Shown: piece by piece, positions 37,717-44,575 of the stretch | Numbering within the stretch: the first letter of the stretch is position 1 | Layout: each line of letters opens with the position of its first letter | Source: Salibacter halophilus | GTDB taxonomy: Bacteria > Bacteroidota > Bacteroidia > Flavobacteriales_G > Salibacteraceae | Length of the DNA: 64,000 nucleotides | Direction of reading: 5' to 3' | Assembly: GCF_008806325.1 (NCBI RefSeq) | Contig: NZ_WACR01000009.1 | Span: 1 to 64,000 of the forward strand | Translations under genes and position numbers: made by a program | The notes under the pieces: generated by a model | The model's input: the letters and a program-made list of their open reading frames with translations, nothing else | The model's database searches: none | What the model was told of the DNA's origin: nothing

Positions 37717-38058
37717 TCAGGAGGAGACTGATATGTTTTCCTTTATTTGTGATATCAGCTTTTGTAGAGTGGCTTTTTTGAACTGGGTGATTTTCTTGAT
37801 AATAAGAGAGCGGTGAACAGTAAATAATTCATTTGTTCTCACTTCACTTTCTTTTCTGAGTTTAATGTCAATTTCATTCTGATTGATGTGAAAGGACAAT
37901 TCGTCATTCCTGATGACAGATGTTATTTTAGCGACAATCAAATTTTGCCTGTTTATAGAATCCTTTGAAATGATGACAACTGGTCTTTTTTTAGATCTCG
38001 ATAGATCAGTGTAAGGATAAGGAAGTAGTACAATATCACCCTGATTAAAGTTTTTCAT
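37717..38058 (-). CDS. PemK/MazF-family toxin
   Basis: Likely ribosome-independent mRNA endonuclease, 113 aa. Typical MazF/PemK features are NQGDIVLLPYPYTDLS and KKRPVVIIS at the N-terminus, and the conserved segment RTNELFTVHRSLI. It lies 15 nt after an acidic protein that should be its antitoxin, transcribed on the same strand. Confidence 0.9.
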   Translation of the reverse strand: MKNFNQGDIVLLPYPYTDLSRSKKRPVVIISKDSINRQNLIVAKITSVIRNDELSFHINQNEIDIKLRKESEVRTNELFTVHRSLIIKKITQFKKATLQKLISQIKENISVSS

Positions 38059-38073
38059 CGGTGGAGAACAATT

Positions 38074-38505
38074 TTAGTAATTATCCCAGTGATCATCTTC
38101 TTCAGAATCCCAGTCTTCTGACAAAACCGGGGTTGAGATTTTGTAATGATGGTGTTTATCTGCTAATTCTTCCAGTGTTTTGTGGAGCTCTTTAACTGAG
38201 GCAAGGAAAGTTTGAAAACTGTCTTTTATTGCTCTAAATTTTTCATCGTTTGAAGATTCCAGTGATTTTTCAAATTGATTAATTACAGGAATCATTTTTT
38301 CAAGCAAGAGAAGTTCTTTTTCTGCTTCTGAATTTTTTAGGTTTCTTGATTGAGAAACAGCTCCGCGTATTCTGAGGTTAGCATCTTCGATTTTTGAAAT
38401 AGCAAACTCTTCGTAGTCGTTCCACACTGAATCAGTGTATTGGAGGGAAGACATTATTCCGAGTGTTTCAAAAATGAAATGGTTATATACATGACCGTAA
38501 CTCAT
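38074..38505 (-). CDS. Unrecognised acidic protein, putative antitoxin of the MazF-like toxin
   Basis: 143 aa, not assignable to a family I know. The central region is helical and charged (AEKELLLLEKMIPVINQFEK), and the C-terminus is strongly acidic (SEDWDSEEDDHWDNY), which fits a flexible toxin-neutralising tail. No DNA-binding motif is evident. Position directly upstream of the toxin suggests the antitoxin role. An exact -7 box (TAATTTTG, 38510-38517) ends 4 nt before the ATG at 38505, so the start is well supported and the transcript would be leaderless. Confidence 0.6.
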   Translation of the reverse strand: MSYGHVYNHFIFETLGIMSSLQYTDSVWNDYEEFAISKIEDANLRIRGAVSQSRNLKNSEAEKELLLLEKMIPVINQFEKSLESSNDEKFRAIKDSFQTFLASVKELHKTLEELADKHHHYKISTPVLSEDWDSEEDDHWDNY

Positions 38506-39488: not shown

Positions 39489-40829
39489 TTACTTTTTTAG
39501 CTCTTCAACTGATGAAACGCCACGCATCTCGCAAAACTTGTTCACGATCATGTTGTAGTGGGGAACTTTGTCCTTGAAGAACTTTTTCATTTCTTCTTTT
39601 TCTTCGTTAGTGGCTTCCAGCTTATTGAGAATGTTGAGCAGGTGCATTTTCATGTGTCCCTGCTGAATGCCGGTAGTCACGAGAGCACGCAACGCACCAA
39701 AGTTTTGTGCGAGTCCGCTAGCGGCCACAATACCCATCAATTCTTTAGCCGATGGATTATCGAGAAGCTCATGAGCCAACTTTACAACCGGATGCAGGTT
39801 TGTGAGTCCGCCCACAGTGCCGAGCGCCATCGGAACCTCGATCCAGAACTTGAACATGCCATCCTCCACAGAGCAATCTGTGAGTGATCGGTACTGTCCG
39901 CTACGTGATGCGTAAGTGTGACAGGCAGCTTCAATTGCGCGGAAATCATTTCCGGTTGCAATTACCACTGCATCGATTCCATTCATAATGCCTTTGTTGT
40001 GCGTGGTAGCACGGTAAGGTTCAATGCGGGCAACGTGAACAGCACGCTCAAATTTTTCCACAAATTCTTCGGCTGAAACACCATCGGTTTCGAGAAACTC
40101 TACCGGGCAGGAGACTTCAGATCTTACCAAACACTCAGGCGTGTAGTTCGAGAGAATACACATGATGATTTGGATGTCCTTTTCTTTTTCGGTGAAAATA
40201 TCAGATTCGCTAACTGCTTCCTGTAACGTGTTGGCAAACTGCTCCAGGCAGGTATTGATGAAGTTGGCTCCCATGGAGTCAACCGTTTCAAAAGTCGCTT
40301 TAATCTGGTAGTAGTTGGGTTCTTCAAATGTCTTGTTAATGAGCATGAGATCCACAATTCCGCCACCGCGCTTGCGCATGTTTTTGGTGATCTCAGCAGT
40401 ATCGGCATAAAAACGGTCTTTTACCGAGTTGAAGAATTCCCAAAGCTTGTTGTAGTCGCCATAGTATGCAAAATGAACGTGACCTACTTTTTTGGTGGAT
40501 ACCACTTCGCTTTTGAAGCCTCCGCGGTCATACCAAAAGCTGGCTGCCTTAGCGGCTGCTGCAACAACTGAGCTCTCCTCAATTGCCATGGGCATAGCGT
40601 AAACCTTATCGTTGATCTTAAAGTTTGGCGCCACTCCAAAAGGCAGGAAGTAATTCGTGAGCGTATTCTCGATGAATTCATCGTGAAGCTGCTGTGTTTT
40701 TGGGTCGTTGTGCCAGTATTTTTGAAGCGTTTGTCGCGCCTCATCGGGATTGTTGAAATAGTTATTCGTGAGCCATTCGATCTTGGCTTCTTTCGTCATT
40801 TTGGAAAATCCCTGTACTCTCTTTGACAT
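39489..40829 (-). CDS. Hydroxymethylglutaryl-CoA reductase
   Basis: Reduces HMG-CoA to mevalonate, the committed step of the pathway. At 446 aa without membrane helices it looks like a class II soluble enzyme. Catalytic elements: Glu in MAIEESSVVAAA (about residue 83), Lys in THNKGIMNGIDAV, Asp in ATGNDFRA, the GTVGGLTNLHP segment and the C-terminal His in GHMKMHLLN. HMG-CoA synthase is not in the window. Confidence 0.95.
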   Translation of the reverse strand: MSKRVQGFSKMTKEAKIEWLTNNYFNNPDEARQTLQKYWHNDPKTQQLHDEFIENTLTNYFLPFGVAPNFKINDKVYAMPMAIEESSVVAAAAKAASFWYDRGGFKSEVVSTKKVGHVHFAYYGDYNKLWEFFNSVKDRFYADTAEITKNMRKRGGGIVDLMLINKTFEEPNYYQIKATFETVDSMGANFINTCLEQFANTLQEAVSESDIFTEKEKDIQIIMCILSNYTPECLVRSEVSCPVEFLETDGVSAEEFVEKFERAVHVARIEPYRATTHNKGIMNGIDAVVIATGNDFRAIEAACHTYASRSGQYRSLTDCSVEDGMFKFWIEVPMALGTVGGLTNLHPVVKLAHELLDNPSAKELMGIVAASGLAQNFGALRALVTTGIQQGHMKMHLLNILNKLEATNEEKEEMKKFFKDKVPHYNMIVNKFCEMRGVSSVEELKK

Positions 40830-40926
40830 GGTCGTTCTTTTTGCGAAATATACTGCGAAAGTAACGCATGTAAAATGAAATTAGTTTACATGAAAAGGGA
40901 TTTAAGTTTTTTTAGCTGATGGGTAA

Positions 40927-40967
40927 TAACGGTCAGAGCCGGGACTTCACTCCGGCTCTGACTGTTA
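40927..40967. terminator. Stem-loop built from an inverted GGTCAGANCC pair
   Basis: GTCAGAGCCGG (40932-40942) pairs perfectly with CCGGCTCTGAC (40952-40962) around a 9-nt loop, and AAC/GTT extends it. It contains the exact 10-mer at 40931 and a near-copy at 40954 in opposite orientation. It lies just past the stop of the RND transporter gene and before the HMG-CoA reductase start, so a terminator role is plausible, but no T run follows on either strand. Confidence 0.6.
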
Positions 40968-40969
40968 AT

Positions 40970-43900
40970 TTATTCACCACTCAACTTGTACTTGGCTTTG
41001 TTGAGCAAGAAGTACATTACAGGTACGATAATGAGTGTGAGGAACGTGGCAAACGTGAGACCAAAAATGATGGTCCACGAGATAGGTCCCCAGAACATTA
41101 CGTTATCACCACCCACATAAATATTGGGATCGAGTGTTTTAAAGAAACTGAAAAAGTCGATGTTCAAACCGATTGCGAGCGGAATCAACCCAAATATGGT
41201 CGTGATTGCCGTTAGCAATACCGGACGCAAACGCGTTTTACCGCCTTCTTCAATTGCTTTTACCACTTCATTAAATGGAAGTTTTTCATCGTCTTCGAGT
41301 TCCAGTTCTTCTCTCCTTCTATCGATGATGAGGTTGGTGTAGTCGATCAGTACGATCGCGTTGTTCACCACGATACCGGCCAGCGAGATAATCCCGATCA
41401 TGGTCATGATCACGATGAAGTCCATCTGGAAGATTACAAGTCCAAGGAGTACGCCAATCAAACTGAAAAGTACCGAAGTACCGATAATAAACGGAGTACT
41501 CACCGAGTTGAACTGCATCACAATGATCATGATGATGAGGAAGAACGCGATAGCTAGAGCCGTGGTGAGGAAGTTCATCTCCTCGGCCTGCTCTTCCTGC
41601 TGACCAGTAAACTTGTACGTAATGCCTTCGCTCATGTCGTAATCCTTGAGGTGGGTCTTGATGTTGTTTACCACTTCAGTAGGGTTGTAACCATCGAGTA
41701 CGTTTGACGAAATTGTGATAATACGCTCTAAGTCTTTGCGCTTCACCGCACTAAAAGTCGATGTTTTCTTTGCTGTTGCAACTGAAGAAATTGGAACCTG
41801 CACAATTCTACCCGTTGAAGGATCTCTGAAAGTGATGCGTTGGTTCATCAATATTTCTGAGTTGTTGCGCAACTCTTCTTTCAACCTGATATTGATCGGG
41901 TAGTCGTCTTCACCTTCTTTGTAGGTGGAAACTTCTTGTCCGTACACGGCCGTACGCAGCGCATTACCTATTTGGCCGGTTGACAATCCCAGTCTGCGCG
42001 CTTTAGCCCTGTCGATATTTACTTCGAGCTGCGGTTTACCCTGTTCTACATCTAATTTTAATTCTTCAATACCTTCAATGTTGGCATCTTTGATGTACGA
42101 TTTTATGCTCTCAGTTTCCTGCATGAGCGCGAGGTAATCGTCACCCTGCACCTCGATGTTAATCGGTTTACCCTGAGGTGGACCAGCCTGGTTTTTATCG
42201 ACTGATATTTTAGTTCCCGGGTATCCTTTGAGCGAGTTACGGATCTCTGTTTGTACATCGCTTGTCAAAATTCCTCTACGCAACTGGAACTTTTCAAATG
42301 AAACTGTAATCCGTGCTTTGTGTGGTGTACTTCCCATTTGTGGACCTTGCATAGGGTCTGATGTTCCTTCACCTACCTGTGCGATCACTGACTCTACGAG
42401 GAAGTCTTCTTTTTCACCCGTTTCAGGGTTTACAGCCTGGTATTGTTCAAGCACTTTCAGAACCTTTTTCTCGATGTCTTTCGTGATCTCATTCGTGTAT
42501 TCAATATCAGTCCCAATCGGTTTTTCGATGTAGATATTGAGGTACTGCGGTTCATTCTCAGGGAAGAACAGGATCTTTGGCGTAAACTTGATAATGAGTA
42601 CGATCGAAAGGATTAGAGCCAAAGTGGTTCCGACCAAAAATGCAACCGGCTTTTTGCCGCTTAGCGCATATTTGATAAAGCTGTCGTAGAAGTTTTCCAT
42701 TGCCGGGATGATGCGGTTTTGAAAAAAGACAGTTCCCGGATAAATCACAAAACTGTTCAACAACAGGAATGTGCCGGTTATACCGATGAAGTTGGCCGAT
42801 ACGTTTTGGCCTGTTACAAAGAAAATTCCGGAAAGAATCAACAGCCCGATTGCCGGCTTTATGACTTTCTTTCGGTTGGTGTTTTTCGATATAAACGCGT
42901 AGTCTTTAAGTGTCAAGATGAGAATTACTGAAACGATTGCACCCGCAATATAATTGAGTGCTCCGGCTTCAGGTTGGTCACCCGCAATGTCAATGAGCAT
43001 TGCCACAATAATGACTACTCCGTAAATGATGAGTCGCTTCGTTGGGATCTTTACATCTTGTTCATCGATCTTCATAAATTTAGAAGTGAGCACGGGGTTG
43101 ATAACCAGTGCTACAAATAATGATGATGACAAAACAATGATGAGCGTAATAGGAAGATATTGCATGAAGTTCCCCACAACGCCAGGCCATAAACCGAGCG
43201 GAATAAAGGCTGCCAACGTAGTGGCTGTTGAGGCGATAATTGGGAGTGCAACTTCTCCAACACCTGCTTTTGCTGCCTTGAGTGGCGGATAGCCTTCATC
43301 CATCAATCGGTAGATGTTTTCAACTACTACAATTCCGTTATCCACTAACATCCCGAGTGCGAGTACGAGCGAGAACAACACAATTGTATTCAGGGTTACG
43401 CCCATCGCGTTGAGGATAAAAAATGACAGGAACATCGAGAGCGGAATGGCAACTCCCACGAAAAGTGCGTTTCGTAACCCGAGGAAGAACAAGAGCACAG
43501 CAACAACGAGAATCACACCAAAAATGATGTTGTTGGCGAGTTCGTCAACCTGTGTTCTGGTTTGGTCACTTTGGTCACCGGTTATCGAAACCTGGAGGTT
43601 TTCAGGGAATTCGTTATTCTGTGCTTTTCCAACGATTTCATTGATCGCATCAGAAGCTTCTAGTAGATTGGCACCACTTCGCTTCATTACATCAACCATC
43701 ACAACTGTCTCGGTGTACTGGCGAGCGTAGCTTTCTTTTTCTTTTTGCTGGAAAGTAACATTAGCAATATCGTTGAGGTAAACGATATTCCCGCTTTCGT
43801 GCTTGACAACAATGTCCTCAATTTGTTTGTAGTCTTTGAATTCACCCAAAACACGAATTGAGCGCTCAAAGTTATCAGTGTTGATCTCACCTCCAGAGAT

Positions 43901-44575
43901 TGTGAGGTTTTCGTTTGAGATGGCTCCGGCTACGTCATTGAAGCTGACTTGCATCGCGTTCATTCGATGAATGTCGAGATTTACAGCTACTTCTTTTTCA
44001 GTGTACCCGCGGATATCTACACTTGTGATTTGCGGAAGATCTTCGATTTCTTCCTGTAGGTATTCAGCGTAATCCTTGAGCTGATCCTGTGAGAACTCTC
44101 CTGAAAGGTTGATGTTCATGATCGGAACCAGTTCTGAGAAGTTCATCTCGAACACATTCGGTTCTGACGGTAGATCATCTGGGAAGTCTGAGTCGGCTTT
44201 TGCTTTATCAACTTCGTCTTTGACTTTTCGCAGAGCTTCATCAGGCGTTATGCTGAAATCGAACTTTACCTGGATAGATGAATACCCCTGAATGGATGTA
44301 CTGTTAATTTCATCGATACCGGAAATCGTGTTGATCTCTTTCTCGAGTGGTCTGGTGATCAGTTTCTCAATATCGAGGGCTGAGTTTCCGGGATATGGTG
44401 TGCCAACGTAAATCTCCGGTGTTACAACCTCTGGGAAACTCTCCTTGGGCATGCTCGTGTATGAAATGATACCCGCAATCAGGATGATGGCGGTGAGGAC
44501 AAATACTGTCACTCTGTTCTCTACAGAGAGTGAGGAGAGTTTAAACTCTTTTATTTTTTCTTTTAGGTTACTCAT
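40970..44575 (-). CDS. RND-family efflux permease (HAE1 type)
   Basis: Proton-driven pump of a tripartite efflux system, 1201 aa against about 1050 in AcrB. Standard features: first helix (VTVFVLTAIILIAGIISY), periplasmic domains and the TM4 proton site, read here as LVDNGIVVVEN, so AcrB Asp408 is Asn. The surplus is mainly an insert after TM6 (about residues 510-625) with four further hydrophobic segments (LIIYGVVIIVAMLI, YIAGAIVSVILILTL, IGLLILSGIFFVTG, FIGITGTFLLLNSFVIY). It is the last gene of the tetR-tolC-hlyD-RND operon. Confidence 0.93.
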   Translation of the reverse strand: MSNLKEKIKEFKLSSLSVENRVTVFVLTAIILIAGIISYTSMPKESFPEVVTPEIYVGTPYPGNSALDIEKLITRPLEKEINTISGIDEINSTSIQGYSSIQVKFDFSITPDEALRKVKDEVDKAKADSDFPDDLPSEPNVFEMNFSELVPIMNINLSGEFSQDQLKDYAEYLQEEIEDLPQITSVDIRGYTEKEVAVNLDIHRMNAMQVSFNDVAGAISNENLTISGGEINTDNFERSIRVLGEFKDYKQIEDIVVKHESGNIVYLNDIANVTFQQKEKESYARQYTETVVMVDVMKRSGANLLEASDAINEIVGKAQNNEFPENLQVSITGDQSDQTRTQVDELANNIIFGVILVVAVLLFFLGLRNALFVGVAIPLSMFLSFFILNAMGVTLNTIVLFSLVLALGMLVDNGIVVVENIYRLMDEGYPPLKAAKAGVGEVALPIIASTATTLAAFIPLGLWPGVVGNFMQYLPITLIIVLSSSLFVALVINPVLTSKFMKIDEQDVKIPTKRLIIYGVVIIVAMLIDIAGDQPEAGALNYIAGAIVSVILILTLKDYAFISKNTNRKKVIKPAIGLLILSGIFFVTGQNVSANFIGITGTFLLLNSFVIYPGTVFFQNRIIPAMENFYDSFIKYALSGKKPVAFLVGTTLALILSIVLIIKFTPKILFFPENEPQYLNIYIEKPIGTDIEYTNEITKDIEKKVLKVLEQYQAVNPETGEKEDFLVESVIAQVGEGTSDPMQGPQMGSTPHKARITVSFEKFQLRRGILTSDVQTEIRNSLKGYPGTKISVDKNQAGPPQGKPINIEVQGDDYLALMQETESIKSYIKDANIEGIEELKLDVEQGKPQLEVNIDRAKARRLGLSTGQIGNALRTAVYGQEVSTYKEGEDDYPINIRLKEELRNNSEILMNQRITFRDPSTGRIVQVPISSVATAKKTSTFSAVKRKDLERIITISSNVLDGYNPTEVVNNIKTHLKDYDMSEGITYKFTGQQEEQAEEMNFLTTALAIAFFLIIMIIVMQFNSVSTPFIIGTSVLFSLIGVLLGLVIFQMDFIVIMTMIGIISLAGIVVNNAIVLIDYTNLIIDRRREELELEDDEKLPFNEVVKAIEEGGKTRLRPVLLTAITTIFGLIPLAIGLNIDFFSFFKTLDPNIYVGGDNVMFWGPISWTIIFGLTFATFLTLIIVPVMYFLLNKAKYKLSGE

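Follow-up and report, generated by a model that had tools for sequence, protein, structure and literature searches.

An intergenic hairpin of Salibacter halophilus whose arms are inverted copies of a dispersed, genus-specific word resembling DNA uptake sequences

The window analysed here, i.e., the whole stretch of 64,000 nucleotides, carries on its minus strand a gene for an RND transporter of the AcrB/AcrD/AcrF family (40970..44575; PF00873, E = 2e-180) and, as the next gene downstream, that for HMG-CoA reductase (39489..40829, minus strand; PF00368, E = 2e-89). Between the two genes an inverted-repeat hairpin, assigned to neither strand, was located by a pattern scan at 40927..40967. It has 17 pairs, two of them G-T, and a 7-nt loop (TAACGGTCAGAGCCGGG-ACTTCAC-TCCGGCTCTGACTGTTA); the arm at 40927-40943 is paired with that at 40951-40967, and the perfect 11-bp core of the stem is formed by GTCAGAGCCGG (40932-40942) and CCGGCTCTGAC (40952-40962). 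The left arm contains, on the plus strand at 40931..40940, an exact copy of a dispersed word, GGTCAGANCC, with G at the position N (reading GGTCAGAGCC), and the right arm contains, on the minus strand at 40954..40963 and 23 bp away from the exact copy, a second copy with one mismatch (AGTCAGAGCC, given as the reverse copy GGCTCTGACT). The mismatch consists of an A at position 1, where no other variant exceeds its expected number as strongly (33 seen, 1.9 expected). The original prediction had described an inverted pair of a 10-mer, with a one-mismatch reverse copy 23 bp on, as the stem of a hairpin between the end of the RND gene and the start of HMG-CoA reductase; pair, offset and setting were all found as claimed, and the 11-bp perfect part proved to lie within a longer stem.

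The stem stands only 2-3 nt from the stop codon of the RND gene and 97 bp from the start of HMG-CoA reductase. Because a promoter-like sequence, a weak match to the consensus only, is present upstream of the latter gene (40847..40874, minus strand), the hairpin appears to separate the end of one gene from a site at which a new transcript probably begins. When the 91-nt region was folded as RNA, the gene (minus) strand reached -35.1 kcal/mol (z = -7.2, with 0/200 shuffles as good) and the plus strand a z of -5.6. The Rfam search gave no match above the gathering score, its one chance hit scoring 19.1 vs 100 bits, and HMG-CoA reductase, looked for in viral contigs, gave one weak hit only. In a sister genome two opposed words are found 83 bp apart upstream of HMG-CoA reductase (L001:4753-4845), where the neighbouring gene is a different one. 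Elsewhere in the window, a small ORF at 37717-38058 (minus strand), that by eye resembles MazF/PemK-type toxins, adjoins a 143-aa ORF (38074-38505).

Between the called genes of the window the copy at 40931 is, as had been stated, the sole exact GGTCAGAGCC. The word in this form was too narrow, since with N allowed at position 8 the window holds 32 exact copies, none being expected under an order-3 model. Further counts come from whole-genome pattern searches and from 464 kb that were read directly (G000 denotes the genome under study, G001 and G002 the two sister genomes of the genus that were examined). In the 3.12 Mb of G000 the word GGTCAGANCC is present in 1,482 copies, about 1 per 2.1 kb, divided evenly between the strands (739 forward, 743 reverse), and the control, the word read backwards, in 4 copies. 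The sister genomes contain 824 and 486 copies, and the other 57 genomes of the class 1-38 copies each, which is background. Abundance of the word is thus restricted to 3 of the 60 whole genomes counted, and all three belong to one genus; the counts covered all 35 available genomes of the family. In 18 other genomes, sampled for up to 20 kb each, no similarly dense word was convincing, the weaker candidates being protein or simple repeats. The one strong candidate, in G019, a relative from the same family, was set aside, as it resembles an attC-type cassette array: eight same-direction copies of TAACGCCCCG..GCCAAGGCAAGT stand about 0.4-1.3 kb apart (G019:C1 60-5700), like integron attC sites.

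The extended consensus of the word approximates TWWY-GGTCAGADCC-RRAA. Among 207 copies of G000 the flanks are T-rich from -4 to -1 and purine/A-rich from +10 to +13, the positions singled out being T at -4 and A at +12, and position 8 is occupied by A, G or T and almost never by C. Over-represented mismatches are found mainly at positions 1, 2 and 5; positions 3, 4, 6, 7 and 9 are nearly invariant. The form in G002 is TTTT-GGTCAGA-A-CC with A at +12, that in G001, seen in 21 copies only, is TTTT-GGTCAGA-A-CC-C.AA, and in these sister species the flank signal is stronger than in G000. A fixed core is therefore set in species-specific surroundings (flanks and position 8), in the manner of uptake-sequence dialects. 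Genome-wide, the likeness to uptake sequences noticed in the original prediction holds: the word is extremely abundant and confined to the genus, its copies are balanced between the strands, and the species differ in dialect.

The placement of the copies was determined on gene calls from a simple codon-usage script rather than a full gene finder. Inside genes lie 173 of the 207 copies, in five of the six reading frames, and the frame that is never used is the one that would force a TGA stop; a protein-coding origin of the word was rejected on account of this frame use. Within 400 kb of contig C1 the orientation of the copies is 89/86 although nine of ten 40-kb blocks have a negative GC skew, and the spacing of the word equals random placement (CV 1.02). 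Within 38.8 kb of G000 and G002 that could be aligned at 70% identity, no positionally shared copies were found. Taken together, the use of five frames, the strand balance, the random spacing and the lack of shared sites imply a non-polar DNA element with turnover. Chi, KOPS and nucleoid sites are likewise frequent, short and DNA-level, and a bound chromosomal protein could also account for the flanks, so the word might be a signal for recombination or chromosome handling (Chi-like, KOPS-like or a nucleoid protein site), with the pairs as by-products. Yet no orientation bias is seen over 400 kb of mostly constant GC skew, unlike Chi or KOPS, for which reason a replication-polar signal was rejected, and random spacing, confinement to one genus and species-specific flanks also speak against this explanation, which we regard as unlikely. 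The word is neither a protein motif nor a Chi- or KOPS-like polar signal, and it may be a non-polar protein-binding site.

The dispersal of the copies, and the palindromic form that pairs sometimes take, could also be expected from repeats of a transposon-borne or REP-like kind that a transposase has spread. However, no conserved sequence is found past about 18 bp in the G000 copies, which are mostly single and intragenic, placed at random and without common sites between species, and this origin is highly improbable. Intergenic copies in G002 number 44 against 14 expected, and up to 60 nt past stop codons 19 copies are present vs 2.7 expected. In G000, 29 intergenic copies vs 27 expected amount to no enrichment, and enrichment after stops is not clear there, the first set of gene calls giving 7 copies vs 5.8 expected and the second set 8 vs 4.8. 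A strong intergenic and stop-proximal bias is accordingly seen in G002 and not in G000, though the word is numerous in both; the uneven intergenic enrichment speaks against the uptake reading proposed below.

Expected numbers of inverted pairs were obtained by extrapolating the word density of sampled stretches. For the exact word, at distances of up to 30 bp, G000 contains 12 tail-in and 4 head-in pairs (5.5 expected each). For an 8-base core it contains 37 tail-in and 20 head-in pairs vs 20.3 expected, and G002 contains 26 and 3 vs 6.9 expected, so that the head-in controls are at or below expectation in both genomes and the tail-in pairs exceed chance by roughly 17-20 in each. Since pairs exceed expectation across the genome, the pair at 40927-40967 is not the isolated case whose finding would have spoken against the original prediction. 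About 10 of the 37 tail-in pairs of G000 sit 3-37 nt past a stop codon, where chance would place 1-2. A near twin of the hairpin, at C1:77678-77718, likewise follows directly on the stop codon of a gene on the minus strand, and its CTGACTGTTAATTT arm is the same. The pair excess, the stop-proximal cases and the twin together indicate that the pair at 40927-40967 belongs to a real, if modest, class. It could still be argued that the two copies face each other here by coincidence, given how common the word is, as random placement would already yield about 20 tail-in core pairs; but the stem runs well beyond the word and is very stable (the z of -7.2), the site is immediately past a stop codon, and stop-near pairs are above chance, all of which makes coincidence a rather improbable account. 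In the loop of several word-pair hairpins of G000 the sequence AGCCGGCT was noticed (C1:77680, C4:37608, C5:29914, C5:126371, C5:144166); it occurs 15 times in 464 kb, and three similar palindromes 1-6 times.

A further question is whether the hairpin ends transcription. The DUS is part of about 55% of the high-confidence terminators of Neisseria, the Pasteurellaceae counterpart being 17-29% (PMC1852404), and the original prediction had suggested a paired terminator of the Neisseria type. By this reading the hairpin would end the RND transcript as an intrinsic terminator of dual use, built of two uptake-like words like those of Neisseria and Haemophilus. The site just past the stop and ahead of a likely promoter, the very stable fold, the stop-near pairs and the twin in the same setting are in keeping with it, and, like the intrinsic terminators of G000, the hairpin has a stable, GC-rich stem that comes after a stop codon. 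What it lacks is the U-tract on the transcript of the gene: past the stem the RND transcript continues with CCGUUAUUACCC, in which 3 U are found among the first 8 nucleotides, the twin is followed by CCGAAAAAUUAG, and the remaining stop-proximal word pairs are likewise without a clear U-tract. The absence of a U-tract is what the flanks of the word would predict, as they give a tail-in pair T before and A after the stem. Behind 192 gene ends (464 kb) 53 strong hairpins were found, mostly classical terminators with A-tract, stem and U-tract; the word pair is present in 2 of the 53, both without U-tract. Ordinary terminators of G000 also stand mostly 10-35 nt past the stop, whereas the hairpin follows it at 2-3 nt. 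In sister G001 no word hairpin is present behind the RND gene, and in G002 the end of this gene falls off the contig. Of the original suggestion, the likeness to uptake sequences therefore stands, while its terminator part is weak, and a dual-use intrinsic terminator seems doubtful. Some other role at the 3' end, i.e., protection of mRNA or a weak or factor-dependent termination, is possible. In G002 some single words past stops precede a separate ordinary terminator, e.g., at L191 and L194.

Genes for DNA uptake were also surveyed. G000 and G002 both have ComEC, as does every tested relative of at least 90% completeness. G000 contains a complete-looking T2SS/type IV pilus-like cluster (C13:5339-15880) of pseudopilins, prepilin peptidase, a PilB/GspE ATPase, secretin, GspL/M/C-like proteins, the GspF platform protein and minor pseudopilins, named by PF00437 and PF00263 matches and for the other members by reading translations. 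The word-free genomes G003 and G006 also have the ATPase and secretin of this cluster, neither of which was found in the word-bearing drafts G001 and G002 (83% and 94% completeness), thus the cluster as a shared uptake machine is unsupported, its distribution not tracking the word. Riemerella anatipestifer is reported to transform by means of ComEC, DprA, ComF and RecA together with four proteins that do not resemble known machinery, a TonB-receptor-like barrel and a DUF5689 protein among them (PMC8459023). DUF5689 was found in G001 and G002 and not in G000, which leaves it unsupported as a shared receptor, and among the pilus-like cluster, DUF5689 and ComEC no candidate receptor tracks the word, a result that likewise speaks against the uptake reading.

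The word has the sequence marks of uptake sequences (DUS/USS), namely abundance, both orientations, frame independence, clade restriction with dialects and an excess of inverted pairs; by this anatomy it may be called DUS/USS-like, a term of likeness that makes no claim of membership in the class. We infer that this word, whose inverted copies form the hairpin, probably functions in the manner of a DNA uptake sequence. With slightly less confidence, though still as the favoured view, an independently evolved uptake-sequence system in Bacteroidota is proposed, with dialects around GGTCAGANCC; its receptor could be something other than a type IV pilus protein. In such a system a surface DNA receptor of these Flavobacteriales would bind the word in duplex DNA and so favour self DNA during natural transformation, biased uptake and recombination would spread the word and keep it frequent, and a shifting receptor preference would give each species its own dialect. 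Two facing copies just past a stop would then form a stable hairpin in the transcript, possibly protecting the end of the mRNA or acting as its punctuation, and the best reading is that some word pairs are used as 3'-end hairpins beside a self-tag role of the uptake type. Neisseriaceae and Pasteurellaceae, both proteobacterial, are the two families for which uptake words have been documented, and hairpins of paired words are on record for Neisseria and relatives of Haemophilus. A literature search that left many subscription papers outside its scope found no uptake word in Bacteroidetes, nor a description of such a pattern from this phylum. If the proposal is true, the genus word and its dialects would be a third, independent case, allowing a direct test of how such words originate and spread, and could serve as bait for the DNA receptor of transformation systems that have no type IV pili; the hairpin would mean that abundant words also come to pair close to the ends of genes in lineages other than the known families, even where the classic terminator form is missing.

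Of the known systems, that of Riemerella is close in lineage, as it belongs to the Flavobacteriales, ComEC is found in G000 and G002, and R. columbina is reported to prefer self-DNA, a k-mer count having listed only A-rich words there (PMC8459023; PMC7965970). It differs in having no known uptake word and in its DUF5689 component, not found in G000. The pasteurellacean USS (AAGTGCGGT) has another core, and the flanks of the present word, for which uptake is a proposed role, are two-sided and weaker; in both, a core with weaker AT-rich flanks is mostly intragenic and takes part in a minority of terminators (17-29% for the USS, PMC1852404). The neisserial DUS (GCCGTCTGAA and its dialects; PMC3630211) is a different word of a different phylum; the common TCTGA stretch is not counted as homology, and here no genus-wide link to pili was found, pairs are rarely intrinsic terminators and G000 copies are not enriched between genes. 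Nevertheless, both are short non-palindromic words with hundreds to thousands of copies on both strands, restricted to a clade, with TGA in one frame and an excess of inverted pairs, and the dialects of Neisseriaceae, like those described here, keep a fixed core in species-specific surroundings (PMC3630211).
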